NCBI RefSeq assembly: GCF_000423045.1
Contig: NZ_KE383971.1
Location: 72,092-136,091, forward strand
Direction of reading: 5' to 3'
Source of the DNA: Christiangramia portivictoriae DSM 23547
GTDB taxonomy: Bacteria; Bacteroidota; Bacteroidia; Flavobacteriales; Flavobacteriaceae
DNA length: 64,000 nt
The notes beneath the pieces are model-generated. The model worked only from the letters and a program-made list of their open reading frames with translations. It made no database searches and was not told the origin of the DNA. Below, one piece after another: positions 7,501-23,632 of this stretch. The first letter of the stretch is position 1; the number at the start of each line of letters is the position of its first letter. The position numbers and the translations under genes are program-made.

Positions 7501-7735
7501 TTAAACCAATGAATGAAAAAACAAGCACATCACCCTGATTTGCCTGAATTTGATACTTCCCATCGAAGTCGGTTTGAGTACCCGTGCCAGTACCTTTAAT
7601 CAGAACGTTTACACCTGGAAGTGGAAGACCGTCTGAATCGGTCACTGTTCCAGTTATAGAACGTTCCTGTGCGAGAGTGATCTGCACCACGAACGCTAAA
7701 AATAGCGTTAAAATAATTCTAAACTTTGTTCTCAT
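4580..7735 (-). CDS. SusC/RagA-type TonB-dependent outer-membrane receptor
   Basis: 1051 residues, full length for the family. Signal peptide 1-22 (MRTKFRIILTLFLAFVVQIT...), carboxypeptidase-D-like domain about 24-105, TonB-box-like EVVVTALGIKREK near 104-116, plug domain to about 225 with VLKGAAATALYGPQGINGV, then a large beta-barrel. The last residues NTRTIGLNVNISF end in an aromatic, as required for outer-membrane assembly. Partner of the SusD lipoprotein 15 bases downstream. No sulfatase, glycoside hydrolase or peptidase gene is next to it, which is why the substrate stays open. The first 120 residues and about 25 bases of untranslated leader closely match the partial receptor at the left edge, while the plug and barrel differ. 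Confidence 0.96.
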   Translation of the reverse strand: MRTKFRIILTLFLAFVVQITLAQERSITGTVTDSDGLPLPGVNVLIKGTGTGTQTDFDGKYQIQANQGDVLVFSFIGLKQTEYTVDNIDTIDITMENDSAQLQEVVVTALGIKREKQSLGYAQQTVEGESLIKARETNINNALAGKVAGVQFTGAPSSGFGNSNIRLRGNTGVLYIVDNVKVQSASDIITDDIADMSVLKGAAATALYGPQGINGVIIITTKSAGQGQSSISINHSSAMENVYKIPEYQNEYGGGYSQEFNTFNFDPSIHPAEWSSFDGQSMVEYYADESWGPKMDGQLVRHWDSWIPNTPEFGELRPFSPNPDNIRDFFETGITSNTNVTFSKGGEGFSVRASLAKIDRTGVIPNSERNTVQGSLSASVDISDKLEGFASLNYQDRRTSNYPSNGYGNIASNFNQWWQRQLDIDRLKDYRRNGEVVSWNLNSPTNTSPLYWDMPYFITNENVNPQNKNALYGRLGLNYTFNEDLTASVEVRKTLNTYESSNRAGFGGLAQPFYSEYEETNNTDELFGILNYQKDLTSDFDISASVGFEVYDRNEKSISASTAGGLTADGFYSLNTSRDRPNLSSYYQEIGRQSIFSKASIGFRDLLYLDGSARLDWQSTANSDDNRVETYGGSLSLIFSKLLPQNDILSFGKLRASVAEAPRFPGVFQISETYNIGTPYGSFGKLSVKSGLNNPNLTGGVRREYEFGTEMRFADNRLGLDVTYFNKQDDQLPAGVSLDPSTGFTSFSTNSGEQTYKGWELAFNVVPVRNDNFVWDINANFATLERTVDAIAPGTDVNVLSTTWRGIQLQERVGEEWGAIYGRAYRRDDAGNILLSETGNPRYDSNQYLGNVLPDWTGGATSFMQYKNLSLGLDFDFQKGGKIFSVTKMFNAYSGLGESTIGNNAAGNPLRDPVTGGGAAVAASDADADTGGILIEGVDETTGEPASYYVEAQTYYGRLFALHEEWLYDASYVKLRQARLDYEVNGSLIDNTPIKKLNIGVFASNLWLIYSSIDDIDISELEDSQITGYGWTEGGQSPNTRTIGLNVNISF

Positions 7736-8074
7736 TTTTGAATTTGTTTGAGTTAGCCAGCCGCAAAAATTATAATTTAATGTTAATAAAGCAAATTTTA
7801 ACTAAAAAAATGCAATAAAAAATTGAAACCACCGAGAATCATTCAGGTTTTTGGCGACTACGCTAAATTTTTCTTCATTGAGTTTAGGGATCTCTGCTAT
7901 TCTCGAAGTGCGCAGGTGACGTTTAATACACGTCTAATTAGCCTTGATATCGCAATATTCTATTATAGAAATTTAAGTATGGCATATATTTGATTATTAG
8001 GTTTTTATTTATACCTTTGCAAACCCTAAAAATCTGGGGATTAAAATTTATTAATAATTAGTGTATAGGAAATT
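7736..8074. other. Divergent intergenic region between susC and the ribosomal cluster
   Basis: 339 bases without a gene. The left part carries the leader of the minus-strand susC gene; the minus strand has TTAAAATTTG near 7790-7800, one base too long to match the TAnnTTTG box. The right part carries the rpsL promoter (7989-8019). The middle (about 7820-7980) holds no feature I can name. Confidence 0.7.
7989..8019 (+). promoter_or_regulatory. Promoter of the rpsL (str/S10) operon
   Basis: TTTG at 7989-7992, a 19-base spacer and TACCTTTG at 8012-8019 match the Bacteroidota -33/-7 consensus in both sequence and spacing. Transcription should start about 5 bases after the second box, leaving a 5' leader of roughly 50 bases before rpsL. 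Confidence 0.8.
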
Positions 8075-8449
8075 ATGCCAACAATTTCACAATTAGTACG
8101 AAAAGGAAGAGCCAAAATAACCAAGAAGAGTAAATCGGCTGCTTTGGATTCGTGCCCTCAAAGGAGAGGTGTTTGCACACGTGTGTATACTACAACTCCT
8201 AAGAAACCAAACTCTGCTATGAGAAAAGTAGCAAGGGTAAGGTTGACTAACGGGAAAGAGGTTAACGCCTACATTCCTGGAGAAGGACACAATCTACAAG
8301 AGCACTCGATAGTATTGGTTAGAGGTGGAAGGGTAAAAGATTTACCAGGTGTTAGATATCACATTGTTCGTGGTGCGCTAGATACTGCCGGTGTTGAAGG
8401 TAGAACTCAGCGAAGATCTAAGTATGGTGCAAAACGCCCTAAGAAGTAA
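8075..8449 (+). CDS. rpsL: 30S ribosomal protein S12
   Basis: 124 residues, the normal length. The conserved core is present: [20 protein letters not shown] around 40-59, with the lysines that contact the decoding centre, and [14 protein letters not shown] near 84-97, whose Asp is the usual methylthiolation site. S12 checks codon-anticodon pairing, and streptomycin-resistance changes fall in these two loops; the residues seen here are the sensitive type (Lys at both classic positions). First gene of the cluster, 23 bases before rpsG. Confidence 0.98.
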
Positions 8450-8472
8450 TTAAAAACTTTTAATGTAAAGAA

Positions 8473-8949
8473 ATGAGAAAAAGACAGGCGAAAAAGAGAC
8501 CGCTTTTACCAGATCCTAAATTCAATGATCAACTAGTTACACGTTTTGTGAACATGATGATGTGGGATGGTAAGAAATCGGTTGCCTTTAAAATTTTCTA
8601 TGATGCTATTGCGATTGTAGAAGAGAAAAAACAAGACGAAGAGAAATCTGGTTTGGAAATATGGAAAGATGCTCTTTCTAACGTTATGCCTCACGTTGAA
8701 GTGAGAAGTAGACGAGTAGGTGGTGCGACCTTCCAGATACCAATGCAGATTCGTCCAGATCGTAAGGTGTCTACTGCTATGAAGTGGTTAATTAGTTTTG
8801 CGCGTAAGAGAAATGAGAAGTCTATGGCTGGAAAGCTATCTGCTGAAATTCTGGCTGCTGCAAAAGAAGAAGGAGCTGCTGTTAAGAAAAGAGTAGATAC
8901 TCATAAAATGGCTGAAGCTAACAAAGCATTCTCTCACTTTAGATTCTAA
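8473..8949 (+). CDS. rpsG: 30S ribosomal protein S7
   Basis: 158 residues. [20 protein letters not shown] at the N-terminus and the central [20 protein letters not shown] are family signatures. S7 starts assembly of the 30S head by binding the 3' domain of 16S rRNA and lies near the E-site tRNA. Only 6 bases separate it from fusA, the classical str-operon order. No tuf gene follows fusA here. Confidence 0.98.
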
Positions 8950-8955
8950 AACAAC

Positions 8956-11067
8956 ATGGCACAAAGAGATTTAAAATTTACTAGAAATATTGGAATTGCG
9001 GCTCATATTGATGCAGGTAAAACTACAACTACAGAGCGTATCCTTTATTATACAGGTATAAGTCATAAAATTGGTGAAGTTCATGATGGTGCTGCCACAA
9101 TGGACTGGATGGAGCAGGAGCAGGAGCGTGGAATTACCATTACTTCTGCAGCGACACACTGTAAGTGGATGTACCGCGATCAGGAATTTACTGTTAATAT
9201 TATTGATACTCCAGGTCACGTTGATTTTACTGTAGAGGTAGAACGTTCCTTACGTGTTCTTGATGGGGTTGTTGCATTGTTTTCTGCAGTAGATGGGGTA
9301 GAGCCTCAGTCTGAAACTGTATGGAGACAGGCTGATAAATATAGAGTACCACGTCTAGGTTTCGTGAATAAGATGGATCGTCAGGGTGCAGATTTTTTCA
9401 ATGTTTGTCGTCAGGTAAGAGAAATGCTTGGTGGTAACCCGGTGCCGCTTCAGGTGCCAATTGGTGATGAAATCGACTTTAGAGGAGTGGTTGATCTTAT
9501 TTCTAAAAAAGCGATTATCTGGAATGATGAGGATCATGGAATGACTTATGATACTATCGATATTCCAGAAGAGCTTGTAGATGATGTGAATAAATACCGT
9601 GCAGAATTAGTAGAAGCGGTTGCAGAGTACGATGAGGCTTTGATGGAGAAATTCTTCGAGGACGAATCTTCAATCACAGAAGATGAGATCATCGCTGCAT
9701 TAAGAGCTGCTACTATTGATATGAGCATCATACCAATGATGTGTGGTTCTGCTTTTAAAAATAAAGGTGTTCAGGCGATGCTTGACGCTGTAATGCGTTA
9801 CCTTCCTTCTCCAGTTGATGTGGAAGCGATTGAAGGTACGAATCCTGAAACAGGTAAAGAGGAAAGTCGTAAGCCAAATGTGGATTCTCCATTCTCTGCG
9901 CTTGCATTTAAAATTGCTACCGATCCTTTCGTGGGACGTTTAGCATTCTTCCGTGCCTATTCAGGTACTCTTGATGCTGGTTCTTACGTATTAAACGTTC
10001 GTTCAGGTAAGAAAGAGCGTATTTCAAGAATTTATCAAATGCACTCTAATAAGCAAGAGCCTATCGATAGTATTGAGGCTGGAGATATTGGAGCTGCTGT
10101 TGGATTCAAGGATATCAAAACTGGTGATACTCTTACTGATTTGAATCATCCAATTGTTCTTGAATCTATGTCTTTTCCTGCACCGGTAATTGGTATTGCT
10201 GTGGAGCCTAAAACAAAGGCAGATGTTGAGAAGATGGGAATGGCTCTTGGTAAGCTTGCTGAAGAAGATCCAACATTCACAGTAAAGACTGATGATAATT
10301 CAGGACAAACAATTATCTCTGGTATGGGTGAGCTTCACCTGGAGATTATTATTGACCGAATGAAGCGTGAGTTCAAAGTGGAAGTAAACGTTGGTGAGCC
10401 TCAGGTTGAGTACAAAGAAGCTGTACGTAGAGATGCTGATCAAAGAGAGGTTTATAAGAAACAGTCTGGTGGTCGTGGTAAATTTGCGGATATCGTATTT
10501 ACTATGGGACCTGTAGATGAAGATTTTGAAGGTGATGGTCTGCAGTTTATTGATTCTATTAAAGGTGGTCGTATTCCTAAAGAATTCGTTCCTTCCGTAG
10601 AAAAAGGATTTAAAGAGGCTATGAAGAATGGTCCTTTAGCTGGATTTACGATGGACTCACTAAAAGTGGAGCTTAAGGATGGATCTTTCCACCCTGTGGA
10701 TTCAGATCAACTTTCTTTCGAACTGGCTGCTAAAATGGGTTACAAATCTGCTGCTAAATCTGCAGGAGCCGTAATTCTTGAGCCAATCATGAAAGTAGAG
10801 GTTGTTACTCCGGAAGAGAATATGGGTGATATCGTTGGTGACCTTAACAGAAGAAGAGGTCAGGTAAACAACATGTCAGACAGATCTGGAGCGAAAGTAA
10901 TCAAAGCTGAAGTGCCACTTTCTGAAATGTTTGGATATGTTACAACATTAAGAACACTTTCATCAGGTAGAGCAACTTCAACTATGGAATTCTCTCACTA
11001 TGCTGAGACTCCTTCTAATATTTCTGAAGAAGTGATCAAAGCAGCTAGAGGAGCAGCAAACGAATAA
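8956..11067 (+). CDS. fusA: Translation elongation factor G
   Basis: 703 residues. GTPase domain with the P-loop AHIDAGKTT (16-24), DTPGHVDF and NKMD, followed by domains II to V; the ribosome-translocating tip domain IV contains [11 protein letters not shown] and [16 protein letters not shown] drives movement of tRNA and mRNA after each peptide bond and helps split ribosomes with RRF. It is in the canonical str position, so this is the housekeeping copy rather than a duplicate such as fusA2. Spacing to rpsJ is 10 bases. Confidence 0.98.
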
Positions 11068-11077
11068 TCTTAAGGAA

Positions 11078-11383
11078 ATGAGTCAAAAAATCAGAATAAA
11101 ACTAAAATCTTACGATCATAACCTGGTAGACAAGTCTGCAGAAAAGATCGTAAAAACCGTAAAGACTACGGGAGCTGTTGTTACCGGACCAATTCCGTTA
11201 CCAACGAACAAAAAAATCTTTACAGTTCTTCGTTCACCTCACGTGAACAAGAAATCTAGAGAGCAGTTTCAATTAAGCTCTTACAAGAGATTACTTGATA
11301 TCTATAGCTCTTCTTCAAAAACGATCGATGCGTTGATGAAGCTCGAACTTCCTAGTGGAGTAGAAGTAGAGATTAAAGTGTGA
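11078..11383 (+). CDS. rpsJ: 30S ribosomal protein S10
   Basis: 101 residues, beginning [20 protein letters not shown]. The conserved [20 protein letters not shown] segment (near 35-54) and [19 protein letters not shown] are present. S10 sits in the 30S head and also works in transcription antitermination as NusE. Here it is tied to fusA (10-base gap) and separated from rplC by 146 bases with strong secondary structure, unlike the close spacing inside the downstream genes. Confidence 0.98.
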
Positions 11384-11393
11384 TAAAACAGTT

Positions 11394-11441
11394 CCGCGCA
11401 CTGCGGTGCGCGGTTAACATGTCCTGAGCGTTTCGCGAGGG
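11394..11441 (+). ncRNA. Structured mRNA leader between rpsJ and rplC (two hairpins)
   Basis: First hairpin: CCGCGCAC (11394-11401), loop TGCG, GTGCGCGG (11406-11413). This is an 8-bp GC-rich stem closed by a C(UGCG)G loop, which fits the very stable UNCG tetraloop class. Second hairpin: 11423-11441, outer CCT/GGG and inner GCG/CGC pairs around facing GA/GA bases, with a TTT loop; the facing GA pair is typical of protein-binding RNA. Together with the terminator at 11465-11498 this looks like a ribosomal-protein leader controlling rplC and the genes after it. That function is inference. Confidence 0.55.
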
Positions 11442-11464
11442 AAAAACGGTGAAAAATACAATTC

Positions 11465-11498
11465 AGGGCTGAATGTGTTTTTCAGCCCTTAGTTTTTT
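11465..11498 (+). terminator. Intrinsic terminator or attenuator between rpsJ and rplC
   Basis: AGGGCTGAA (11465-11473) and TTCAGCCCT (11481-11489) form a perfect 9-bp stem, followed after TAG by six T (11493-11498). No good -33/-7 promoter follows before rplC; only TAGTTTTT at 11490-11497 comes within one base of the -7 box. Since rplC to infA depend on transcription from upstream, partial read-through (attenuation) is the simplest reading. Confidence 0.75.
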
Positions 11499-11529
11499 AA
11501 ATAAGTAAACAATTAATAATTAATTAAAT

Positions 11530-12141
11530 ATGTCTGGGTTAATAGGAAAAAAGATCGGTATGACCAGCATCTTCGACGAGAATGGGAAAAATATCCCATG
11601 TACCGTAATCGAAGCTGGACCATGCCTGGTTACCCAAGTCAGAACCAAAGAGGTTGACGGGTATGAAGCAATTCAACTTGGTTTCGATGACAAAAAGACT
11701 GTTAATAAGGCTGCTGAAGGGCATGCTAAAAAAGCAGGAACCGTTGCAAAACGTAAAGTCGTTGAATTCAAGGGATATAGTGAAGATTATAAACTTGGTG
11801 ACTCTGTTACCGTGGAACATTTCAAAGAAGGTGAATTTGTGGATATCGCAGGCACATCTAAAGGTAAAGGTTTCCAGGGTGTTGTAAAGAGACACGGTTT
11901 TGGAGGAGTTGGACAGGCCACACACGGTCAGCACAACAGATTGAGAGCTCCTGGTTCTATTGGTGCCGCTTCTTATCCTGCGAGAGTATTCAAGGGGATG
12001 AAGATGGCCGGAAGAATGGGTGGCGAGAGAGTTAAAGTTGAAAACCTGAAAGTTTTGAAGGTTGTGGCAGATAAGAACCTTTTGGTTGTGAAAGGATGTG
12101 TGCCGGGATCTAAAAACTCATACGTAATCATTAGTAAGTAA
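11530..12141 (+). CDS. rplC: 50S ribosomal protein L3
   Basis: 203 residues. The long loop that reaches the peptidyl-transferase centre is clear: [20 protein letters not shown] (near 120-139), then [18 protein letters not shown]3 is one of the two first proteins to bind 23S rRNA. It is the first gene after the hairpin region. Its stop TAA shares its last base with the rplD start, so the two are translationally coupled. Confidence 0.98.
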
Positions 12142-12767
12142 TGGAAGTAGCAGTTTTAGATATTAAAGGAAAAGAAACAGGCAGAAAAGCGCAGCTTTCT
12201 GATTCTGTTTTCGCTATAGAGCCTAATGAGCACGCTGTTTACCTGGATGTGAAGCAATATCTGGCTAACCAACGTCAAGGTACTCACAAGGCAAAAGAAA
12301 GAGCTGAGATCGCTGGATCTACGCGTAAGATCAAGAAACAAAAAGGTACTGGTACGGCAAGAGCTGGTAGTATCAAGTCTCCTATCTTCAAAGGTGGTGG
12401 ACGTGTTTTTGGTCCGAGACCAAGAAATTATGGTTTCAAATTAAATAAAAACCTTAAGCGTCTTGCTAGAAAATCTGCTTTATCAATTAAAGCAAATGAC
12501 AAGGCAATTATGGTAGTTGAAGATTTTTCATTCGATACTCCAAAAACTAAGAATTTCATCGAAGTTCTTCAGGCTCTGGGGATTGACAGTAAAAAATCGC
12601 TTATTGTGTTGGGTGACTCAAATAAAAATGTATATTTGTCGTCGCGCAATTTAAAATCCTCAGAAGTTATAAGTAGCTCAGAATTAAGTACTTACAAAAT
12701 ACTTAATGCTAAGAGTATCGTCTTCGTAGAAGGATCTTTAGAAGGAATTGAGTCGAAATTAAGTTAA
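12141..12767 (+). CDS. rplD: 50S ribosomal protein L4
   Basis: 208 residues. The extended loop lining the exit tunnel ([19 protein letters not shown], near 63-81) and [12 protein letters not shown] are conserved. In Enterobacteria L4 represses its own S10 operon by attenuation, which makes it the natural candidate regulator of the structure found before rplC, although the family can bind different RNA folds in different phyla. Starts on the last base of rplC. Confidence 0.98.
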
Positions 12768-12776
12768 TAAACCGTT

Positions 12777-13067
12777 ATGAGCATCTTGATTAAACCTGTT
12801 ATTACAGAAAAAGCTACTACAGATAGTGAGATGAACAATCGTTTCACTTTCGTGGTAAGTAACAAGGCAAATAAGATTCAGATCAAAGACGCAGTTGAAT
12901 CTGCTTATGGCGTGTCTGTTACTAAAGTTCGAACTATGAATGTCCGCCCAGATCGAAAGACTAAATATACTAAGTCTGGAATGATCACTGGTAAAACTAA
13001 TGCTTACAAGAAAGCAGTAGTACAGGTGGCGGAAGGTGAAACAATTGATTTATACAGTAATCTTTAA
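12777..13067 (+). CDS. rplW: 50S ribosomal protein L23
   Basis: 96 residues: MSILIKPVITEKATTDSEMN, then NKANKIQIKDAVESAYGVSV with the typical V-T-K-V-R-T-M strand. L23 sits at the tunnel exit and is the docking site for trigger factor and the signal recognition particle; the SRP protein gene ffh is elsewhere in this window (41415-42743). 9 bases after rplD and 9 before rplB. Confidence 0.98.
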   Translation: MSILIKPVITEKATTDSEMNNRFTFVVSNKANKIQIKDAVESAYGVSVTKVRTMNVRPDRKTKYTKSGMITGKTNAYKKAVVQVAEGETIDLYSNL

Positions 13068-13076
13068 GATTAAACA

Positions 13077-13913
13077 ATGTCAGTTAGAAAATTAAAACCA
13101 ATTACACCTGGTCAGCGTTTTAGAGTAGTAAATGGGTATGACGCCATTACTACTGATAAGCCGGAGAAAAGCCTATTGGCGCCGATAAAAAAATCAGGTG
13201 GTAGAAACAGTCAGGGAAAAATGACCATGCGCTACAAAGGTGGTGGTCATAAAAGAAGGTATCGTGTTATCGATTTTAAGCGTGATAAGCAGGGAATCCC
13301 TGCTACTGTTGCTTCTATCGAATACGATCCAAACAGAACGGCCTTTATCGCATTATTGAATTATCAGGATGGAGAGAAAAGGTATATTATTGCTCAGAAC
13401 GGGCTTCAGGTTGGACAGAATGTAGTTTCTTCCAATGAGGCTGCTTCTCCTGAGATCGGGAATGCGATGCCATTGGCAAACATTCCACTAGGTACGGTAA
13501 TTTCCTGTATCGAGTTAAGACCAGGTCAGGGAGCTGTGATGGCGCGTAGTGCTGGTGCTTTCGCTCAGTTGCTAGCGAGAGAAGGTAAGTATGCGACGAT
13601 CAAATTGCCTTCAGGGGAAATTAGACGTGTTCTTTCACTTTGTATAGCTACAATCGGAGCTGTTTCTAACAGTGATCACCAATTGATGGTTGGTGGTAAA
13701 GCCGGTAGAAGCAGATGGTTAGGTATACGTCCAAGAACGAGACCGGTTGCGATGAACCCTGTCGATCACCCAATGGGTGGTGGTGAAGGTAGAGCTTCAG
13801 GTGGTCACCCACGTTCTAGAAAAGGTCTTCCTGCTAAAGGATTCAAGACCCGCTCAAGAACTAAAGCGAGTAATAAATATATTGTAGAACGTAGAAAGAC
13901 TAGAAAGAAATAA
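13077..13913 (+). CDS. rplB: 50S ribosomal protein L2
   Basis: 278 residues. The [17 protein letters not shown] segment and the C-terminal [11 protein letters not shown] are diagnostic. The functionally important first His of the DHPHGGGEGR motif is kept; the second His is Met here. L2 joins the subunits and supports the peptidyl-transferase centre. Only 3 bases before rpsS. Confidence 0.98.
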
Positions 13914-13916
13914 GAT

Positions 13917-14195
13917 ATGGCACGTTCATTAAAAAAAGGACCTTTCGTTCATTACAAACTGGAACAAAAAGTGGCTCAGAATGTCGAGTCAGGAAAGAAA
14001 GCCGTGATCAAAACCTGGTCTAGAGCTTCTATGATTACTCCAGATTTCGTAGGACAAACTATCGCAGTGCACAATGGGAAACAATTTGTTCCTGTGTATG
14101 TAACTGAGAACATGGTAGGTCATAAACTAGGAGAATTTTCACCAACTCGTTCTTTCAGAGGACATGCAGGTGCAAAAAATAAAGGTAGAAAATAA
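13917..14195 (+). CDS. rpsS: 30S ribosomal protein S19
   Basis: 92 residues starting [19 protein letters not shown], with the conserved [19 protein letters not shown] and [18 protein letters not shown]. It forms a head complex with S13 that touches the A-site tRNA and the 50S bridge. Lies between rplB and rplV, as in E. coli. Confidence 0.98.
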
Positions 14196-14203
14196 TTGAA
14201 GCT

Positions 14204-14611
14204 ATGGGAGTTCGTAAAAGAGAAAGAGCAGAGCAAATAAAAGAAGCCAAGAAACAGGTAGCTTTTGCAAAGTTGAATAACTGCCCTACTTCGCCTAGAA
14301 AAATGCGTCTTATGGCGGATTTAGTAAGAGGAGAGAAAGTAGAAAAAGCGCTTCATATTCTAAAGTTCAGTAAAAAAGAAGCATCTAATCGATTAGAGAA
14401 ACTTTTAGTTTCAGCTATTGCCAACTGGCAGGCTAAGAATGAGGATGCTAACCTTGAGGAAGCTGAGCTATTTGTGAAAGAGATTCGTGTAGACGGAGGA
14501 AGTATGTTAAAAAGACTTCGTCCTGCTCCACAGGGTCGTGCACACCGAATTAGAAAGAGATCCAATCACGTTACTTTAGTGCTTGGAGCAAACAATAATA
14601 CACAAAGCTAA
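14204..14611 (+). CDS. rplV: 50S ribosomal protein L22
   Basis: 135 residues, somewhat longer than the usual 110 owing to a basic N-terminal extension ([19 protein letters not shown]). The core [19 protein letters not shown] and the tunnel hairpin [20 protein letters not shown] with the macrolide-facing loop are intact. L22 and L4 shape the constriction of the peptide tunnel. Confidence 0.98.
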
Positions 14612-14619
14612 GAGATAGT

Positions 14620-15339
14620 ATGGGACAGAAAACAAATCCAATCGGGAATCGCCTTGGTATCATTAGAGGTTGGGAATCCAACTGGTACGGAGGTAATGAC
14701 TACGGCGATAAACTTGCCGAAGACGATAAGATTAGAAAGTACATCCATGCGCGTCTTTCTAAAGCGAGTGTATCGCGTGTAATCATCGAGCGCACGCTTA
14801 AGCTTGTAACCGTTACTATCACCACTGCCAGACCTGGTATTATTATCGGAAAAGGTGGACAGGAGGTAGACAAGCTTAAGGAAGAGCTTAAAAAGATTAC
14901 CGACAAGGAGGTTCAAATCAACATCTTTGAAATCAAAAGGCCAGAACTTGACGCTCATTTAGTGGCTTCAAGTGTTGCAAGACAAATCGAGAACAGAATT
15001 TCTTACCGTCGAGCAATTAAAATGGCTATTGCGGCTGCAATGAGGATGAATGCAGAAGGAATCAAAATTGAGATTTCCGGACGTTTAAATGGTGCTGAAA
15101 TGGCACGTTCAGAATCTTACAAAGATGGTAGAATTCCTTTGTCTACTTTTAGGGCTGATATTGATTATGCTTTGATCGAAGCTCATACTACCTATGGTAG
15201 ATTGGGAATCAAAGTATGGATCATGAAAGGTGAGGTATACGGAAAAAGAGAGCTTTCGCCTCTTGTTGGTCTTGCGAAGAACCAAGGAAAAAAATCCGGT
15301 GCCGGACGAGGTGGGAACAAATCACGTCGTAGAAAGTAA
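14620..15339 (+). CDS. rpsC: 30S ribosomal protein S3
   Basis: 239 residues. N-terminal [20 protein letters not shown], a KH domain with the RNA-binding loop [14 protein letters not shown] (near 85-98), and a C-terminal domain with [12 protein letters not shown] and [17 protein letters not shown]3 lines the mRNA entry tunnel. The last residues are a basic, Gly-rich tail ([11 protein letters not shown]). Confidence 0.98.
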
Positions 15340-15359
15340 TTTTTTAAAGTAAAGAAAAA

Positions 15360-15779
15360 ATGTTACAACCTAAAAGAACAAAATACCGTAAGCAACAAAA
15401 AGGCCGTATGAAGGGGCTTGCTCAAAGAGGGCACAGACTTTCAAACGGAACCTTCGGAATCAAATCAATGGATTCCAGCTTTGTTACTGCACGTCAAATA
15501 GAAGCAGCACGTATTGCCGCTACCCGATATATGAAAAGAGAAGGTTCTATCTGGATCAAAATATTTCCAGATAAGCCTATTACAAAGAAACCTCTTGAAG
15601 TACGTATGGGTAAAGGTAAAGGTGCCGTAGAATATTGGGCAGCAGTGGTAAAACCAGGAAGAATCATGTTCGAAATTGGCGGTGTGCCAATGGCGACTGC
15701 TAAAGAGGCATTACGTCTTGCAGCACAAAAACTTCCGGTAAGAACAAAATTTGTTGTAGCTAGAGATTATCAAGAATAA
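15360..15779 (+). CDS. rplP: 50S ribosomal protein L16
   Basis: 139 residues: [20 protein letters not shown], with [20 protein letters not shown] and [21 protein letters not shown]16 helps position tRNA in the A site and is assembled late. 20 bases after rpsC, 11 before rpmC. Confidence 0.98.
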
Positions 15780-15790
15780 TAATTGGAATT

Positions 15791-15982
15791 ATGAAACAAT
15801 CAGAAGTAAAAGAATTGTCTGTTGCAGAATTGCAAGAAGAACTTGGTAAGTCTCGAAAAGCTTATTCAGATTTAAAAATGGCTCATGCTGTTTCGCCTTT
15901 GGAAAATCCGATACAGTTGAGAACTGAAAGGAGAAAAGTGGCGAGACTAGCTACAGAGTTAACTAAAAGAGAACAACAATAA
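15791..15982 (+). CDS. rpmC: 50S ribosomal protein L29
   Basis: 63 residues forming the typical two-helix hairpin; the conserved ENPIQLRTERRKVARLATEL occupies the second helix. It borders the tunnel exit beside L23. A 191-codon reading frame on the opposite strand across rpmC-rpsQ-rplN is a shadow and is not annotated. Confidence 0.97.
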   Translation: MKQSEVKELSVAELQEELGKSRKAYSDLKMAHAVSPLENPIQLRTERRKVARLATELTKREQQ

Positions 15983-16000
15983 TTGTTATTCTGCTGAAAG

Positions 16001-16258
16001 ATGGAAAAAAGAAACTTAAGAAAAGAGCGTGTAGGGGTTGTTACAAGTAACAAAATGCAGAAATCCATAGTGGTTGCTGAAGTGAAAAAAGTAAAACACC
16101 CTATGTATGGAAAATTCGTTTTGAAAACGAAAAAGTACGTAGCACACGACGAAAATAACGACTGCAACGAAGGTGATACTGTAAAGATCATGGAAACAAG
16201 ACCTTTAAGTAAATCCAAGACTTGGAGATTAGTAGAAATAATTGAAAGAGCGAAGTAA
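16001..16258 (+). CDS. rpsQ: 30S ribosomal protein S17
   Basis: 85 residues, an OB-fold: [29 protein letters not shown], and [20 protein letters not shown] are standard. S17 binds the 5' domain of 16S rRNA early in assembly. Followed after 3 bases by rplN. Confidence 0.98.
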
Positions 16259-16261
16259 ATC

Positions 16262-16630
16262 ATGGTACAACAAGAGTCCAGACTAAAAGTAGCAGATAAC
16301 ACCGGTGCTAAAGAAGTTTTAGCCATTCGTGTGTTAGGAGGTACAAAGAAAAGATACGCATCTGTTGGAGACAAGATAGTTGTCAGTGTAAAAGAAGCTA
16401 CACCTAACGGAAATATCAAGAAGGGTGCAGTTTCAACAGCAGTTGTTGTTCGTACCAAGAAAGAAGTGCGCAGGCCAGACGGATCTTACATCCGTTTTGA
16501 TGATAATGCATGTGTACTTTTAGGCCCTCAGGGTGAAATGCGCGGTACTCGTGTATTTGGTCCTGTAGCACGTGAACTTCGTGATAAGCAATTCATGAAA
16601 ATTGTATCATTGGCACCTGAAGTGCTTTAA
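16262..16630 (+). CDS. rplN: 50S ribosomal protein L14
   Basis: 122 residues, [20 protein letters not shown] to the end, the exact family length. [17 protein letters not shown] and [13 protein letters not shown] are diagnostic. L14 lies on the subunit interface and is the binding site of the silencing factor RsfS. First gene of the spc part of the cluster. Confidence 0.98.
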
Positions 16631-16642
16631 TACATTAAGAAA

Positions 16643-16954
16643 ATGACAAAGCTTAAAATAAAATCAGGAGATACCGTACGTGTAATCGCTGGTGACCATA
16701 AAGGTCAGGAAGGGAAAGTGCAGAAGGTACTTATCGAGAAGAATAAAGCCATTGTGGAAGGTGTCAATATGATTTCCAAACACGAGAAGCCTAGTGCTTC
16801 TAATCCACAGGGTGGAATCAAGGAGAAAGAAGCTCCAATCCATATTTCTAACCTATCACTTATCGATAAGAACGGTGATACAACGAGAGTTGGTTATAGA
16901 GAAAAAGATGGTAAGAAAGTGAGATTCTCTAAAAAATCTAATGAAGTAATATAG
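16643..16954 (+). CDS. rplX: 50S ribosomal protein L24
   Basis: 103 residues with an N-terminal KOW motif ([20 protein letters not shown]) and the conserved [19 protein letters not shown]24 starts folding of the 5' end of 23S rRNA. It stops 2 bases before rplE. Confidence 0.98.
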
Positions 16955-16956
16955 TT

Positions 16957-17508
16957 ATGGCATACGTACCAAGACTTAGACAGGAATATAACGAGAGAGT
17001 AAAGAATGCTCTTAAGGAAGAATTCAGTTACTCCAATGTAATGGAGGTGCCAAAACTGGAGAAAATAGTAATTAGCCGTGGAGTTGGTGGAGCAGTAGCC
17101 GATAAGAAACTTATCGACCATGCTATCGACGAACTTTCTGCAATTAGTGGACAAAAGGCTGTTGCTACGATCTCTAAGAAGGATGTTGCATCATTCAAAT
17201 TACGTAAAGGAATGCCAATTGGTGCTAAAGTTACTTTACGTGGATATAGAATGTATGAATTTCTTGATAGATTGATTACCAGTGCACTTCCGCGTGTTCG
17301 TGATTTCAATGGTATCAAAGCTAATGGTTTTGATGGTAGAGGAAATTACAACCTGGGAATCACTGAACAAATCATCTTCCCGGAGATCGATATCGATGCT
17401 GTGAATAGAATCGCTGGAATGGATATCACTTTTGTTACTTCTGCGGAAACCGATAAGGAAGCAAAAGCATTGTTAACCGAACTAGGATTACCTTTTAAAA
17501 AGAACTAA
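16957..17508 (+). CDS. rplE: 50S ribosomal protein L5
   Basis: 183 residues: the [20 protein letters not shown] strand pair and [20 protein letters not shown] are characteristic, with the C-terminal GLPFKKN. L5 binds 5S rRNA with L18 and forms a bridge to S13. Gaps of 2 bases on both sides suggest tight coupling with rplX and rpsN. Confidence 0.98.
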
Positions 17509-17510
17509 TT

Positions 17511-17780
17511 ATGGCTAAAGAATCAATGAAAGCCCGTGAGGTGAAAAGACAGAAATTGGTAAAGAAGTATGCTGAAAAACGCGCTGCTCTTAAAGAAGCA
17601 GGTGATTACGAAGCACTACAGAAATTGCCAAAGAACTCTTCTCCGGTTCGTTTGCATAACAGATGTAAATTAACAGGAAGACCTAAAGGGTATATGAGAC
17701 AATTTGGTCTTTCTCGAGTAATGTTCAGAGAAATGGCTAATCAAGGTCTTATACCAGGTGTTAAAAAGGCAAGCTGGTAA
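17511..17780 (+). CDS. rpsN: 30S ribosomal protein S14, zinc-free form
   Basis: 89 residues, the longer class: [20 protein letters not shown] followed by [20 protein letters not shown] and the C-terminal GVKKASW. Only one Cys is present, so the CxxC...CxxC zinc site of the short 61-residue form is missing. S14 completes the 30S head together with S3 and S10. A 56-base gap with a possible hairpin separates it from rpsH. Confidence 0.97.
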
Positions 17781-17791
17781 TATTATAAACT

Positions 17792-17822
17792 GGATGAAGG
17801 TTCAATAAGGAAAACCACATCC
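17792..17822 (+). other. Possible mRNA hairpin before rpsH
   Basis: GGATG (17792-17796) pairs with CATCC (17818-17822) and, inside, GGTT (17799-17802) pairs with AACC (17813-17816), with an AA/A internal loop and a 10-base loop. It fills the only wide gap in the rplN-rplO run and ends 14 bases before the S8 start codon. S8 is the known autoregulator of the spc operon in E. coli, so an S8-binding site is conceivable; that is inference. Confidence 0.35.
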
Positions 17823-17836
17823 GCAAATAAATTTAA

Positions 17837-18235
17837 ATGAATACAGATCCTATTGCAGATTACTTAACAAGAATCAGGAATGCAAATGCTGCAAACCACA
17901 GAGTTGTGGAAATTCCTGCTTCCAATGTTAAAAAAGAGATCACTAAGATATTATTCGATCAGGGATATATTCTAAGTTACAAGTTCGAAGATACTACCGC
18001 TCAGGGAACTATCAAGATTGCTTTGAAGTATGATAAAATTACTAAAGAGCCGGTAATTAAGAAGATTCAACGAATAAGTAAACCTGGTTTACGTAAGTAT
18101 GCCGGATCAACCGAGATTCCAAGAATCCTGAATGGTTTGGGTATCGCGATTGTTTCAACTTCTCATGGAGTAATGACTGGGAAACAGGCTAAAGCCGACA
18201 AAGTTGGTGGAGAAGTACTGTGCTACGTTTACTAA
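17837..18235 (+). CDS. rpsH: 30S ribosomal protein S8
   Basis: 132 residues: MNTDPIADYLTRIRNANAAN, IKKIQRISKPGLRKYAGST and the C-terminal STSHGVMTGKQAKADKVGGE contain the rRNA-binding residues of the family. S8 binds helix 21 of 16S rRNA and represses its own operon in E. coli. It is preceded by the widest gap of the spc section. Confidence 0.98.
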   Translation: MNTDPIADYLTRIRNANAANHRVVEIPASNVKKEITKILFDQGYILSYKFEDTTAQGTIKIALKYDKITKEPVIKKIQRISKPGLRKYAGSTEIPRILNGLGIAIVSTSHGVMTGKQAKADKVGGEVLCYVY

Positions 18236-18254
18236 TACTTAAAAGACTAAAGAA

Positions 18255-18797
18255 ATGTCAAGAATAGGTAAAAATCCAATTACAATTCCAGAAGGTGTGA
18301 CAGTAGAGCACAAAGACGGTCTTGTAACGGTAAAAGGAAAATTAGGAGAGCTTAAGCAGCAGGTGCAGGATATCGATGTGAAAATCGAAGATAATGTAAT
18401 TACTTTTGAGCGTACTTCTGATAAAAGTGATCAAAAAGCAAAACACGGTCTTTACCGTGCTTTGGTTAATAATATGATTGAAGGTGTATCTAATGGATTC
18501 ACTAAATCACTTGAACTCGTTGGTGTTGGTTACAGAGCTAGCAATCAGGGGAATAAGTTAGATTTGGCTGTTGGATATTCTCATAATATTGTACTAGATT
18601 TGGCTCCCGAAATTAGCGTGGAGACCATTTCAGAAAAAGGTAAGAACCCTATCGTTAAGCTTACTTCTCATGACAAGCAACTTGTTGGACAGGTAGCTGC
18701 GAAGATCCGATCAATGAGAAAGCCTGAACCTTACAAAGGAAAAGGTATCAAATTTGTTGGTGAGCAATTGAGAAGAAAAGCAGGTAAATCAGCATAA
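18255..18797 (+). CDS. rplF: 50S ribosomal protein L6
   Basis: 180 residues with the usual two repeated domains; [20 protein letters not shown] begins the first and the C-terminal [20 protein letters not shown] ends the second. L6 lies near the factor-binding site used by EF-G. 11 bases before rplR. Confidence 0.98.
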
Positions 18798-18808
18798 TAA
18801 AGATAGTT

Positions 18809-19165
18809 ATGGCAGTGTCAAAACAAGATAGAAGAAATAAAATTAGAAAACGTATCCGTAAGGATATAGTTGGAACAACAAGCCGTCCTAGATTATCTGT
18901 ATTCAGAAGCAATAAAGAAATTTATGCTCAGATTATCGATGACGTTGAAGGTAAAACTTTAGCTTCAGCATCTTCAAGAGATAAAGATATCGTGTCTGCA
19001 TCTGCAGATAGAAAAGAGCAGGCTCAAATGGTTGGAAAAGCCATTGCTGAGAAAGCGAAAAGTGCTGGTATCGATACAATCTCTTTCGATAGAGGTGGAT
19101 ATCTATATCACGGTAGAGTTAAATCATTAGCAGAAGGTGCTCGAGAAGGAGGACTTAAATTCTAG
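18809..19165 (+). CDS. rplR: 50S ribosomal protein L18
   Basis: 118 residues. Basic N-terminus ([20 protein letters not shown]) and the C-terminal [20 protein letters not shown] are family hallmarks. L18 carries 5S rRNA into the large subunit with L5. 5 bases before rpsE. Confidence 0.98.
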
Positions 19166-19170
19166 AAAAT

Positions 19171-19695
19171 ATGTATCAAGATTATAAAAACGTAGAACAT
19201 GTAAAACCAGGAGGTCTTGAATTGAAGGATCGTTTGGTTGGAGTACAACGTGTTACTAAGGTTACAAAAGGTGGTAGAGCCTTTGGATTCTCTGCTATTG
19301 TAGTAGTAGGAGATGAGAATGGTGTAGTTGGTCAGGGACTTGGAAAATCCAAAGAAGTGGCAGATGCTATCTCTAAGGCTGTAGAAGACGCTAAGAAAAA
19401 TCTGGTACGCATCCCTTTACATAAAGGAACATTACCTCACGAACAAAAAGGTAAGTATGGTGGAGCAAGAGTTATGCTTCTTCCAGCTGCCGCTGGTACC
19501 GGGATTATTGCCGGTGGGGCGATTCGTGCGGTACTTGAGTCTGTAGGTGTGCATGATGTACTTTCTAAGAATCAGGGATCTTCGAACCCACACAACGTTG
19601 TAAAAGCTACTTTCGATGCTTTGCTTCAATTAAGAAGTGCTGAAACTGTTGCAAAACAGAGAGGTGTTTCTTTGGAAAAAGTATTTAAAGGATAA
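19171..19695 (+). CDS. rpsE: 30S ribosomal protein S5
   Basis: 174 residues. N-terminal double-stranded-RNA-binding fold with [20 protein letters not shown] and the loop [20 protein letters not shown]; the C-terminal domain holds [21 protein letters not shown]5 affects decoding accuracy and spectinomycin response; the conserved VTKGGR loop shows no deletion. Confidence 0.98.
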
Positions 19696-19709
19696 AATCA
19701 AGGAAAAAG

Positions 19710-19892
19710 ATGGGAAAGATAAAAGTCACTAAAAGGAAAAGTGCTATTAACCGCACGAAAAATCAGAAGCTTGTTCTTGAGTCATTAGGACTTAAGAAGA
19801 TCGGGCAGACGGTGGAACATGACGATACGCCAAATATCCTTGGTATGGTAAATAAAGTTAAACACTTAGTTTCTGTTGAAGAAACGAAATAA
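19710..19892 (+). CDS. rpmD: 50S ribosomal protein L30
   Basis: 60 residues, the standard size: [20 protein letters not shown], then the conserved [21 protein letters not shown] small protein at the edge of the large subunit. Starts 14 bases after rpsE; rplO follows after 9 bases. Confidence 0.97.
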
Positions 19893-19901
19893 TAATCTCT
19901 C

Positions 19902-20354
19902 ATGGATTTAAGTAACTTAAAACCTGCAGAAGGTTCAGTTAGAAAGAATAGCAAGCGAATTGGTCGTGGTGAAGGATCTGGTAAAGGTGGAACTGCTACC
20001 AGAGGTCACAAAGGAGCCAAGTCTCGTTCTGGTTATTCGAAAAAGATCGGATTTGAAGGAGGGCAGATGCCACTTCAAAGACGTGTGCCTAAATTTGGGT
20101 TCACAAACAGAAATCGTAAGGTTTACCAGGGTATTAACCTGGATACTCTTCAAACTCTGGTTGATGAAGGAAGAATTAAGGATACAGTTGATATGGACGT
20201 GCTTGCGGAAAACGGCCTTGCCGGTAGAAACGAGCTTGTTAAGATATTAGGTAGAGGTGAATTAAAGGCAAAGTTGAAAATATCTGTTCATAAATTTACG
20301 GCCTCAGCGAAAGAAGCTATCGAAGCTGCCGGAGGTGAAGTTGTTACTTTATAA
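19902..20354 (+). CDS. rplO: 50S ribosomal protein L15
   Basis: 150 residues. The Gly/Arg-rich extension RIGRGEGSGKGGTATRGHKG and EGGQMPLQRRVPKFGFTN are typical, followed by the globular C-terminal domain ending AIEAAGGEVVTL. L15 threads into 23S rRNA. 11 bases before secY. Confidence 0.98.
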   Translation: MDLSNLKPAEGSVRKNSKRIGRGEGSGKGGTATRGHKGAKSRSGYSKKIGFEGGQMPLQRRVPKFGFTNRNRKVYQGINLDTLQTLVDEGRIKDTVDMDVLAENGLAGRNELVKILGRGELKAKLKISVHKFTASAKEAIEAAGGEVVTL

Positions 20355-20365
20355 TAGATATTCAA

Positions 20366-21703
20366 ATGAAATTCATCAATACGATTCAAAATATTTGGAA
20401 AATCGAGGAGCTAAAAAATAGAATTTTAGTTACCCTCGGTTTGCTTTTGGTATATCGTTTCGGGGCGCAGGTAGTGCTTCCCGGAATCGATGCCGCTCAG
20501 CTTTCGAGCCTGGCTAACCAGACAGATAGTGGTTTATTAGGTTTACTGAACGCATTTACAGGTGGTGCATTTTCGAATGCTTCTGTTTTCGCCTTAGGGA
20601 TCATGCCGTATATCTCCGCTTCTATTGTGGTGCAGTTAATGGGAATAGCCATTCCTTATCTGCAAAAGCTTCAGAAAGAAGGTGAGAGTGGACGTAAAAA
20701 GATCAATCAAATCACTAGATGGTTAACCATCGCTATCACATTGGTTCAAGGGCCAGGTTACATTTACAACCTGTTTGCTACCCTTCCTGGGGAGGCATTT
20801 TTACTGGGAGATAACTTGACATTTGTTATTTCTTCTGTAATTATTCTTACTACAGGAACCATTTTTGCTATGTGGCTAGGTGAGAAGATCACAGATAAAG
20901 GTATCGGTAATGGTATTTCATTGTTGATAATGGTGGGTATCATCGCTACGTTACCACAGGCTTTCATTCAGGAATTCGCTTCCAGGGTATTTGAGTCCAA
21001 TGGTGGAATGGTAATGATATTGATCGAACTAGTTATCTGGTTTGCGATTATTATGGCTTCTGTTATGCTAGTTATGGCAGTTCGCCAGATACCGGTGCAG
21101 TATGCAAGGAGATCTGCGTCTGGTGGTTACGAGAAAAATGTTTTTGGATCCAGACAGTATATTCCTTTAAAATTGAATGCCTCTGGTGTGATGCCAATTA
21201 TTTTCGCTCAGGCAATCATGTTTATTCCTGTAGCACTTGCGGGTCTTTCAGATTCCGACACTGCTCAGGGTGTAACAGCAGCTTTTCAGAACATATTTGG
21301 TTTCTGGTATAATCTTGTGTTCGCTTTATTGATTATCGTGTTCACATACTTCTATACAGCGATTACAGTGCCAACTAATAAAATGGCAGATGATCTTAAG
21401 CGAAGTGGTGGATTTATTCCCGGGATTCGTCCAGGAACAGAAACTGCCGAGTACTTAGATAGGATCATGTCTCAAATTACGCTTCCTGGATCTATTTTCC
21501 TGGCTCTTATTGCGGTGTTCCCTGCAATAGTTTTCTCTTTGCTGGGTGTACAGCAAAGTTGGGCGTTGTTCTTCGGAGGGACTTCCCTTCTGATTATGGT
21601 TGGAGTTGCAATAGATACTATGCAGCAGGTAAATTCTTATCTACTGAATAGACACTATGACGGATTAATGAAAACAGGTAAAAACAGAAAAGCAGTAGCT
21701 TAA
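20366..21703 (+). CDS. secY: Preprotein translocase subunit SecY
   Basis: 445 residues with ten hydrophobic segments; the first starts near residue 22 ([20 protein letters not shown]). Conserved: the plug region [31 protein letters not shown], the cytoplasmic loop [11 protein letters not shown] and [14 protein letters not shown]. SecY is the inner-membrane channel for signal-peptide proteins, working with SecE, SecG and SecA, none of which lies in this window. Its place after rplO is the standard spc order. Confidence 0.98.
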
Positions 21704-21705
21704 TT

Positions 21706-21921
21706 ATGGCAAAGCAGGCAGCGATTGAACAAGACGGAACCATCATTGAAGCATTGTCCAATGCAATGTTTCGAGTGGAATTAGAAAATGGTCACGTAGT
21801 GACTGCACATATCTCCGGTAAGATGCGTATGCATTACATTAAATTACTTCCTGGAGATAAGGTGAAACTGGAAATGAGTCCTTACGATTTAACTAAGGCT
21901 CGAATAACTTACAGATACTAA
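21706..21921 (+). CDS. infA: Translation initiation factor IF-1
   Basis: 71 residues, a single S1/OB fold: [40 protein letters not shown] and [22 protein letters not shown]-1 occupies the A site during initiation. It begins 2 bases after secY and ends the first transcriptional section; a promoter follows before rpmJ. Confidence 0.98.
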
Positions 21922-21953
21922 AAAGTAATTTTCAGCCTTTTATAAATTTTTTA

Positions 21954-21961
21954 TACTTTTG
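21954..21961 (+). promoter_or_regulatory. Internal promoter (-7 box) before rpmJ and the alpha operon
   Basis: TACTTTTG is a full TAnnTTTG match in the 115-base gap between infA and rpmJ, the widest gap between secY and rpsM. The -33 region (about 21929-21935, TTTTCAG) is weak. It would give rpmJ-rpsM-rpsK-rpsD-rpoA-rplQ their own promoter with a leader of about 70 bases. Confidence 0.6.
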
Positions 21962-22036
21962 CACTCTGAAAAATTTATGACGGCTAAAATTTCACTAAAA
22001 GGATAATTCCTTGTAAGTGAATTAAAAAGAGATAAG

Positions 22037-22153
22037 ATGAAAGTTAGAGCATCAATAAAAAAGAGAAGTGCCGACTGCAAGATTGTTCGCAGAAAAGGGC
22101 GCCTTTATGTTATTAACAAAAAGAATCCTAGATTTAAACAAAGACAAGGCTAA
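22037..22153 (+). CDS. rpmJ: 50S ribosomal protein L36, zinc-free form
   Basis: 38 residues ([17 protein letters not shown]...KQRQG). The fold-defining N-terminus MKVRAS and C-terminus KHKQRQG-like end are kept, but of the four usual zinc ligands (Cys11, Cys14, Cys27, His33) only Cys14 remains; the others are replaced by Ser, Asn and Phe. L36 is the smallest large-subunit protein. It sits between infA and rpsM as in most bacteria. Confidence 0.96.
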
Positions 22154-22155
22154 TT

Positions 22156-22530
22156 ATGGCAAGAATTGCAGGGGTAGATATACCTAAACAAAAGCGAGGA
22201 GTTATAGCGTTGACCTATATCTTCGGAATTGGCAGAAGCAGGGCTCAGGAGATACTTGCACAAGCTAACGTAGACGAGAGTAAGAAAGTTTCTGAATGGG
22301 ACGATGATGAAATCGGTAAAATTCGTGAAGCCGTTGGTCAGTTTACAATCGAAGGTGAGTTGCGTACTGAGGTTCAAATGAGCATCAAGCGTCTTATGGA
22401 CATTGGTTGTTACAGAGGAATTCGTCACAGAGCTGGTTTACCTTTAAGAGGACAGCGTACTAAGAATAACTCGAGAACCAGAAAAGGTAGAAGAAAAACA
22501 GTTGCTAACAAGAAAAAAGCAACTAAATAG
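22156..22530 (+). CDS. rpsM: 30S ribosomal protein S13
   Basis: 124 residues: [20 protein letters not shown], the helix-two-turn-helix [11 protein letters not shown] and the basic C-terminal [20 protein letters not shown]. The tail contacts P-site tRNA. 2 bases after rpmJ. Confidence 0.98.
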
Positions 22531-22538
22531 TAATTAGT

Positions 22539-22943
22539 ATGGCAAAGAAGACAAATCAAAAGGCCGGTAAGACTCAGAAGAAACGTAAAGTAATCGTTGA
22601 ATCCAACGGTGAAGCACACGTGACCGCTTCTTTCAACAACATCATAATTTCCCTTACCAACAAAAAGGGTGATGTTGTAGCGTGGTCATCTGCTGGTAAG
22701 ATGGGCTTTAGAGGATCTAAGAAAAATACTCCTTATGCTGCGCAGTTAGCTGCTGAAGACGCTTCGAAAGTAGCGCATGAAGCTGGTATGCGTAAAGTTA
22801 AGGTTTATGTGAAAGGTCCTGGAAATGGTAGAGAGTCTGCGATTAGAGCAGTACACAACAGTGGTATCGAGGTTACTGAAATCATCGACATCACTCCACT
22901 TCCACATAATGGATGTCGTCCTCCTAAGAGACGTAGAGTTTAA
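22539..22943 (+). CDS. rpsK: 30S ribosomal protein S11
   Basis: 134 residues. After a Lys-rich start ([20 protein letters not shown]) come [36 protein letters not shown] and the C-terminal [18 protein letters not shown], where the NGCRPPK segment binds rRNA and carries the isoaspartyl-prone Asn. S11 forms the 30S platform. Confidence 0.98.
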
Positions 22944-22963
22944 TAAAATTTAATCATAGAGAA

Positions 22964-23005
22964 GGATTAAGATTATCGAAGGACTTATGCCTTAATTCAT
23001 AATCC
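22964..23005 (+). other. Possible mRNA hairpin between rpsK and rpsD
   Basis: In the 83-base gap, GGATTA (22964-22969) pairs with TAATCC (23000-23005), and inside AAGG (22979-22982) pairs with CCTT (22990-22993) around a 7-base loop. It is followed by CCTTTTC, too weak a T run for a good terminator. In E. coli S4 regulates the alpha operon, so a site just before rpsD is of interest, but binding is inference. Confidence 0.3.
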
Positions 23006-23026
23006 CTTTTCAAAACCACATTAGTA

Positions 23027-23632
23027 ATGGCAAGATATACAGGTCCAAAAACTAAAATAGCCCGTAAGTTCGGTGAAGCTATTTTTGGTGACGACAAATC
23101 TTTCGAAAAAAGAAATTATCCTCCAGGACAACACGGTAACAACCGTCGTCGAGGAAAGAAATCGGAATACGCTATCCAGTTGATGGAAAAGCAAAAAGCT
23201 AAGTATACATATGGTATTCTGGAGCGTCAATTCCGTAATATGTTTGAAAAAGCAACCAGAGCACAGGGTATTACCGGTGAGGTTCTTCTTCAACTTTGTG
23301 AGTCTCGTTTAGATAACGTAGTGTACCGTATGGGTGTAGCACCTTCAAGAAGAGCTGCTCGTCAGTTAGTTGGACACCGTCACATCACAGTAAACGGAGA
23401 ACTTGTAAATATTCCATCTTACCACCTTAAAGCCGGAGATGTTGTTGGTGTAAGAGAAAAATCTAAATCACTTGGTGTAATTCAGGAGTCATTATCTAAC
23501 AGTAGTAATGTTTACGAATGGCTTTCATGGAATTCTGAAAAGAAAGAAGGTACTTTCGTATCTGTCCCTGGAAGAGTTCAAATTCCTGAAAACATCAACG
23601 AGCAATTTATAGTCGAATTATATTCGAAATAA
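23027..23632 (+). CDS. rpsD: 30S ribosomal protein S4
   Basis: 201 residues: [20 protein letters not shown] with the conserved [18 protein letters not shown], and the S4 RNA-binding domain [20 protein letters not shown] with the [16 protein letters not shown] loop. No Cys-type zinc motif at the N-terminus. S4 starts 30S body assembly. rpoA follows after 25 bases. Confidence 0.98.

Follow-up and report, generated by a model that had tools for sequence, protein, structure and literature searches.

In Escherichia coli, ribosomal protein L4 is the known ligand of the S10 leader, through which it exerts autoregulation. S8 is a known ligand for the spc genes. According to PMC10931766, the S10 leader is believed to control transcription by ending it prematurely, at an intrinsic terminator of its own. 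In other lineages, a predicted L4 leader of Archaeoglobi and a predicted L2 leader of Alphaproteobacteria are listed before rplC or rplB runs in Table 1 of PMC7247131. Among the 20 new ribosomal protein leaders (r-leaders) of that table, Flavobacteria labels are attached to those for S4, S15, and S16, with L19 named in the text, and the table has no Flavobacteria-labelled leader for the operon studied here. Older r-leader lists and most subscription papers aside, our literature search found no rpsJ–rplC leader described in Bacteroidota, and it brought up no account of how the S10 cluster might be feedback-regulated in Flavobacteriaceae.

Here we analyzed a window of 64,000 nt from the marine flavobacterium Christiangramia portivictoriae DSM 23547, in which such an element lies between rpsJ and rplC. 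Comparison across Flavobacteriaceae places the conserved element at window positions 11417–11498, where ACAUGUC, hairpin P2, and GAAAAACGG are followed by the intrinsic terminator S2. Judging from sequence comparison, this is a real conserved RNA family, most likely of a known kind, the ribosomal protein leader with an attenuator, and apparently new in sequence, structure, and place. The features of the locus, in window coordinates, are the following:

7990–8019, + strand: two-box match to a flavobacterial promoter, 5′ of rpsL (TTG...TACCTTTG), with the TAnnTTTG consensus taken from PMC9723704
11078–11383, + strand: rpsJ (S10), an ORF of 101 aa and the gene directly 5′ of the element
11394–11413, + strand: hairpin 1 (P1), CCGCGCAC-UGCG-GUGCGCGG, outside the conserved core
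11417–11423, + strand: 5′ recognition letters ACAUGUC, from an alignment of 65 sequences
11422–11442, + strand: hairpin P2 (UCCU-GA-GCG-UUU-CGC-GA-GGGA), from covariation over 99 distinct sequences
11441–11449, + strand: 3′ recognition letters GAAAAACGG, from the 65-sequence alignment and 56 of 80 named loci (54 by pattern, 2 by eye)
11450–11460, + strand: 5′ strand of antiterminator S1, UGAAAAAUACA, from re-pairing and shuffle tests
11465–11473, + strand: 5′ strand of terminator S2, AGGGCUGAA, from folding and covariation
11474–11484, + strand: 3′ strand of antiterminator S1, UGUGUUUUUCA, with 11481–11484 common to the terminator
11481–11498, + strand: 3′ strand of S2 at 11481–11489 (UUCAGCCCU) and U tract at 11493–11498, from folding and covariation
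11530–21921, + strand: run of 22 genes presumed under control, from ORFs and gaps, in the order rplC-rplD-rplW-rplB-rpsS-rplV-rpsC-rplP-rpmC-rpsQ-rplN and then rplX-rplE-rpsN-rpsH-rplF-rplR-rpsE-rpmD-rplO-secY-infA

The gene names in this run are those we presume from conserved gene order and translated starts rather than from a family search.

The E. coli S10 leader controls the S10 operon, as the present element is proposed to do, and its transcriptional control is believed to use a terminator. The E. coli leader, however, is situated before rpsJ, in the gspB–rpsJ gap, whereas the flavobacterial element follows rpsJ, and its antiterminator overlaps its terminator. A model search gave a best match of 8.2 bits (E 2.6) that was not at the leader, and a letter match in that leader, AAGAACGG, was no better than chance, being reached by 199 of 2000 shuffles. 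Similarity to the E. coli-type S10 (L4) leader in sequence or structure was rejected on these results. The S4-Flavobacteria leader (RF03141) is likewise a flavobacterial r-leader within a ribosomal protein cluster, present before rpsD in the same window, but it is a 33-position hairpin of other sequence and structure. Its match, at 22971–23004 between rpsK and rpsD (46.3 bits), is the sole Rfam match in the window that reaches the gathering cutoff. At the element itself, Rfam 15 returned no family at this cutoff, with relaxed matches far below the cutoffs, in agreement with the preliminary description of this DNA, which knew of no matching family. The Archaeoglobi L4 and Alphaproteobacteria L2 leaders belong to lineages other than that of the element.

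The ORF calls put the last base of rpsJ at 11383 and the first of rplC at 11530, leaving an intergenic gap of 146 nt. From rpsL to rpoA, 25 of the 29 gaps are 25 nt or shorter, so that the gap does stand out in a tight cluster as first reported (146 bases, with most gaps under 25). The four longer gaps are rpsJ–rplC (146 nt), rpsN–rpsH (56 nt, at 17781–17836, with shorter neighbors), infA–rpsM (234 nt, with a small rpmJ-like ORF inside it), and rpsK–rpsD (83 nt). The fold of the whole 146-nt gap beats 199 of 200 shuffles (z −4.3), and folding recovered both hairpins and the terminator at the positions originally given for them. The closest named relative found, Gramella jeungdoensis, has an S10 protein with 100% identity to the rpsJ product of the window.

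Over the 65 aligned sequences (65 of 67 picks; L058 and L063, pattern matches outside the gap, and L079 were dropped as false), the near-invariant letters are ACAUGUC on the 5′ side and GAAAAACGG on the 3′ side of the P2 stem. By folding energy, P2 alone is not striking: in the window it reaches −8.8 kcal/mol (z −1.8), which 12 of 200 shuffles match. Across 99 distinct sequences, six of its eight pairs are changed on both sides, the two closing pairs are invariant, and 74.2% of cells are paired. In a re-pairing test, the inner halves scored 8.12 versus 7.35, a score reached by none of 2000 permutations. The stem occurs in three types, namely with GA/GA or similar non-Watson–Crick pairs as in the window, with an 8-bp stem paired throughout (UCCUUAAC/GUUAGGGA and others), or with a 3-nt bulge (UCCC-ACCG/CGGU-CGC-GGGA). 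Because P2 varies in this way, the GA pairs are not a common recognition feature. Specifically, of the 99 sequences, 87 have a non-standard pair in columns 11–25 and 79 in columns 13–24, with standard pairs in the other 12 and 20, respectively, and facing GA pairs were rejected as a general protein site on account of Watson–Crick pairs there in several genera. A stem with facing GA pairs, as first noted for hairpin 2, is present, but sequence comparison indicates that the shared feature is the flanking ACAUGUC and GAAAAACGG rather than the GA-pair shape.

The GC-rich 8-bp stem with a UNCG-type loop that had been described as hairpin 1 is likewise present at 11394–11413 (−17.1 kcal/mol, z −3.7). 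It was nonetheless rejected as part of the element, as relatives carry unrelated hairpins of other sequence and length in its place, and in 18 of 142 distinct gaps just 9–11 nt between the rpsJ stop and the element leave no room for it. The proposal of a three-hairpin element is not supported on this point. Some hairpin is seen just 5′ of ACAUGUC in most gaps with room, its sequence unrelated among gaps. The upstream z is below −1.5 in 96 of the 124 gaps with room; the closeness of this hairpin to the element has no control.

Downstream of the recognition motif, the 9-bp terminator with a six-T tail was found as reported, at 11465–11489 with the T run at 11493–11498 (z −3.8 for the terminator stretch). 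For covariation, 100 loci (99 distinct) were chosen among carriers, and all 100 matched. In P2 and S2 combined, 14 of 17 pairs are changed on both sides, with 131 double-change cells versus 36.7 in shuffles and a covariation of 0.349 versus 0.182; none of 500 shuffles reaches any of the five measures. S2 alone is paired in 98.4% of cells. The alignment was fitted to the P2 and S2 structure, a bias in its favor, but a slide control gave much lower values, with pairing falling from 87.0% to at most 50.9% and covariation to 0.017–0.086. Compensatory changes in relatives, whose absence the preliminary description had named as a refutation of its proposal, are thus seen in both helices.

A further helix, S1, was missed in that description. 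It pairs 11450–11460 with 11474–11484 and overlaps the terminator by four bases. As S1 is not alignable in register on the 100-sequence alignment, it was tested by re-pairing, where its mean score of 15.95 compares with 13.23 (sd 0.18) for re-paired halves and is reached by none of 2000 permutations. Against shuffles of the helix's own 3′ segment, p was ≤0.05 in 84 of 115 distinct cases, although kinship among sequences can inflate both tests. The other 31 of the 115 helices are individually non-significant, in part owing to the richness of both strands in A or U. Moreover, 64 distinct S1 helices were found (UAC/GUA, UAA/UUA, CAA/UUG, GAAU/GUUC, UGAAA/UUUCA, CAAAA/UUUUG, and others), a diversity that argues for independent changes. 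An inner helix within S1 (S1b, UUCA/UGAA) was weak and was set aside, as 11 of 500 shuffles reach its covariation and its pair types are below those of shuffles.

The 3′ strand of S2 overlaps S1 in 136 of 140 elements, and because of this base sharing both helices cannot form together in those 136. The element thus combines a terminator with a mutually exclusive antiterminator, and alternative helices that overlap ahead of a U tract have, as predicted structures, the anatomy of an attenuator. The switch itself is very likely real. Of the original interpretation, the anatomy of an attenuator within the S10 operon, behind the S10 gene, is supported, as are the lack of a promoter match in the gap, the lack of an Rfam family, and the compensatory changes, with termination in the cell being predicted; the three-hairpin element and the GA shape as its shared feature are not supported. 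In terms of stability, S2 exceeds S1 in isolated tails by a median of 9.1 kcal/mol (130 sequences, with S1 better in one), and in the window tail by 3.2 kcal/mol (−15.9 versus −12.7 kcal/mol). The S1 strands are complete before S2; the nascent energy of S1 has a median of −6.1 kcal/mol, and the lowest-energy fold of the whole gap in the window is the S1 form. Since S2 is favored at equilibrium, read-through would depend on kinetics or on a factor.

With respect to mechanism, these comparisons make it likely that the element is a ribosomal protein leader acting by transcription attenuation. In the window, RNA polymerase would arrive from the rpsL promoter, whereas some relatives probably have a local promoter for it, and ACAUGUC-P2-GAAAAACGG would fold first and S1 next. 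Because S1 and S2 have bases in common, S1 would hold the terminator back, and transcription would proceed into rplC–infA as the presumed default state. A ribosomal protein encoded in the run and in excess over rRNA would then bind the recognition motif. In the window this motif directly adjoins the S1 strand, and a bound protein could therefore block S1, upon which S2 would form and transcription would end before rplC; the sign of this response is likewise presumed. Most likely, a ribosomal protein shuts off transcription of about twenty downstream genes in this manner, and we consider ribosomal protein feedback as such quite probable. Owing to its placement after S10, the feedback would spare rpsL-rpsG-fusA-rpsJ.

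A broader and more speculative reading, of which we are doubtful, is that in Flavobacteriaceae str, S10, and spc form one transcription unit whose switch has moved behind S10. One attenuator with a new motif might then govern 22 genes (rplC–infA) while S12, S7, EF-G, and S10/NusE escape, and its ligand might be a ribosomal protein new as an r-leader ligand, such as L3. The leader interpretation itself, if true, would make this compact RNA with two near-invariant motifs a new r-leader class in Flavobacteriaceae, and it would show that the feedback point of the S10 cluster can shift behind S10/NusE.

The alternative that best survives our data is that the S10:L3 ratio is fixed, free of any ligand, by a partial terminator that acts constitutively or by a processing hairpin. 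The thermodynamic dominance of S2 in isolated tails would suit such a device, as would the terminator-like hairpin in 14 of 19 inspected gaps that lack the element (a stem-plus-T rule with no shuffle control). Seven of these 14 also hold TAnnTTTG, given as the sigma-A consensus box for flavobacteria in PMC9723704. A constitutive terminator nonetheless leaves unexplained both the near-invariant ACAUGUC and GAAAAACGG, which are outside the terminator, and the conserved competing helix S1, and we regard it as unlikely.

The element is present in most sampled genera of the family. Within the genus, an S10 match was obtained in 21 of 24 genomes, and all 21 carry the element. In a family sample of one genome per genus, it is found between rpsJ and rplC in 60 of 70 genera; nine have other gaps, and one locus (L119) reads N and is not judgeable. 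Among 80 named loci, 54 match the strict pattern, and L158 and L179, recognized by eye, bring the total to 56. Named carriers include Gramella, Salegentibacter, Mesonia, Aequorivita, Aquimarina, Winogradskyella, Lacinutrix, Maribacter, Tenacibaculum, Polaribacter, Lutibacter, and Galbibacter. Examples of named loci that lack the element are those of Flavobacterium (L162, L190, L197, L199), Nonlabens (L195), Ochrovirga (L165), and Avrilella (L181), as well as several uncultured Flavobacteriaceae loci, Phaeocystidibacter, and Owenweeksia. The gaps of L082, L105, L116, L181, L190, L195, and L199 have no recognition motif, yet contain a terminator-like hairpin. No match was obtained by model search in 19 listed genomes of a genus (g71) that is probably Flavobacterium.

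At wider scope, the 29 class-sample loci read besides the window's own (L052–L080, two in Flavobacteriaceae; 88 further genomes with an S10 match were outside this reading) carry no element. Covariance model searches, with stricter filters that lose weak matches, were run on 196 genomes of the order and matched 17 of the family, counting the window's own, along with weak matches in eight non-family genomes (30.6–36.1 bits); they also found 13 family genomes plus one weak non-family match (31.3 bits) among 247 of the phylum. All 17 strong loci sit in the S10–L3 gap, and the weak non-family loci have no S10 nearby. Spread beyond Flavobacteriaceae was rejected on this ground, and the ten weak alignments inspected, which did not include L224 and L228, are generic-looking terminators without the recognition motif. 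The window's own genome has a single copy; its next-best model matches (27.6 bits at most) are at loci with no recognition motif. Taken together, the element precedes rplC, a ribosomal protein gene, in every element-bearing gap read, and it has a conserved RNA structure with covariation in P2 and S2 and with complementarity controls for S1.

Feedback by an encoded ribosomal protein is the usual rule for r-leaders according to PMC7247131, with exceptions and with uncertainty for multi-gene runs, and it is because of this rule that we favor a ribosomal protein of the run as ligand. The "prior ligand" rule of the same paper would name L4 first. L4 is the second gene product of the run, and precedent makes it the first, if tentative, candidate; L3, L2, S8 (also encoded in the run), and others remain as uncertain candidates beside it. 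Mimicry of rRNA sites is frequent but not required for r-leaders, and a sequence scan of the motif against the window's own rRNA operon detected none: the best match has 14 of 18 letters, a value that 53 of 60 controls attain, and one 7/8 match in 23S, CCAUGUCC, is within chance. With nothing above chance, mimicry lends no support to a ribosomal protein ligand.

That lack of rRNA sequence mimicry in the own operon would also fit a riboswitch, or a binding site of some protein outside the ribosome, for example a general transcription or RNA-processing factor. Against this stand the single site in the window's own genome and the constant position before ribosomal protein genes, which usually goes with encoded ribosomal protein feedback (PMC7247131), and we hold such a ligand to be improbable. 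Translation as the driver of attenuation is a still poorer prospect, whether it is that of a short ORF opened by the AUG within ACAUGUC or the ending of rpsJ by its ribosome. The AUG is conserved, and the ORF is two codons long in 56 of 140 distinct elements, but elsewhere it can extend to as many as 49 codons (range 2–49) and its frame is not kept, so that the upstream ORF was rejected as a regulator. The distance from the rpsJ stop to the element ranges from 9 to 345 nt, and in some lineages a terminator and promoter box appear to separate the two, both of which speak against the rpsJ ribosome.

Consistent with the original remark that no clear promoter follows the terminator, the rpsJ–rplC gap of the window contains no TAnnTTTG box, and no two-box promoter match was found from 8019 to rplC. 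The match at 7990–8019 is the presumed source of transcription through the element. Two-box matches in 7700–24700 are at 7990 (before rpsL), 12609, and 18571, with 1.1 expected in shuffles, and the latter two are within coding sequence; single TAnnTTTG boxes also occur at 8793 and 10479. In none of 142 gaps is there a two-box promoter between the element and rplC, and in 10 of 142 a lone TAnnTTTG lies 24–26 nt after the motif, inside S1/S2, with no second box.

A TAnnTTTG box is found 5′ of the element in 10 of 142 gaps, a count with no chance control, and seven of these meet the stricter two-box pattern. In all ten, a terminator-like hairpin precedes the nearest box and the element lies 20–87 nt past the box; five hold more than one box. 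In these ten gaps the element has the look of a genuine rplC 5′ leader, and because hairpin and box separate it there from rpsJ, rplC appears to be the gene to which it belongs. A 3′ element of rpsJ mRNA (for stability or as a 3′-derived sRNA) unconnected with rplC control, as might be suggested by its place after the rpsJ stop with a terminator at its end in the window and most relatives, is the least probable reading, since in 11 of 11 inspected long gaps (the ten with a box, for which the sample was chosen, plus L218) a terminator-like hairpin follows rpsJ upstream of the element, which stays with rplC. At L172, L187, and L196 (Tenacibaculum, Polaribacter), the hairpin after rpsJ nearly adjoins the TAnnTTTG-type box that precedes the rplC leader. 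In the window, a further TAnnTTTG box (TACTTTTG) is located at 21954–21961 in the infA–rpsM gap, before the small rpmJ-like ORF, where an alpha-operon transcript of its own might start.
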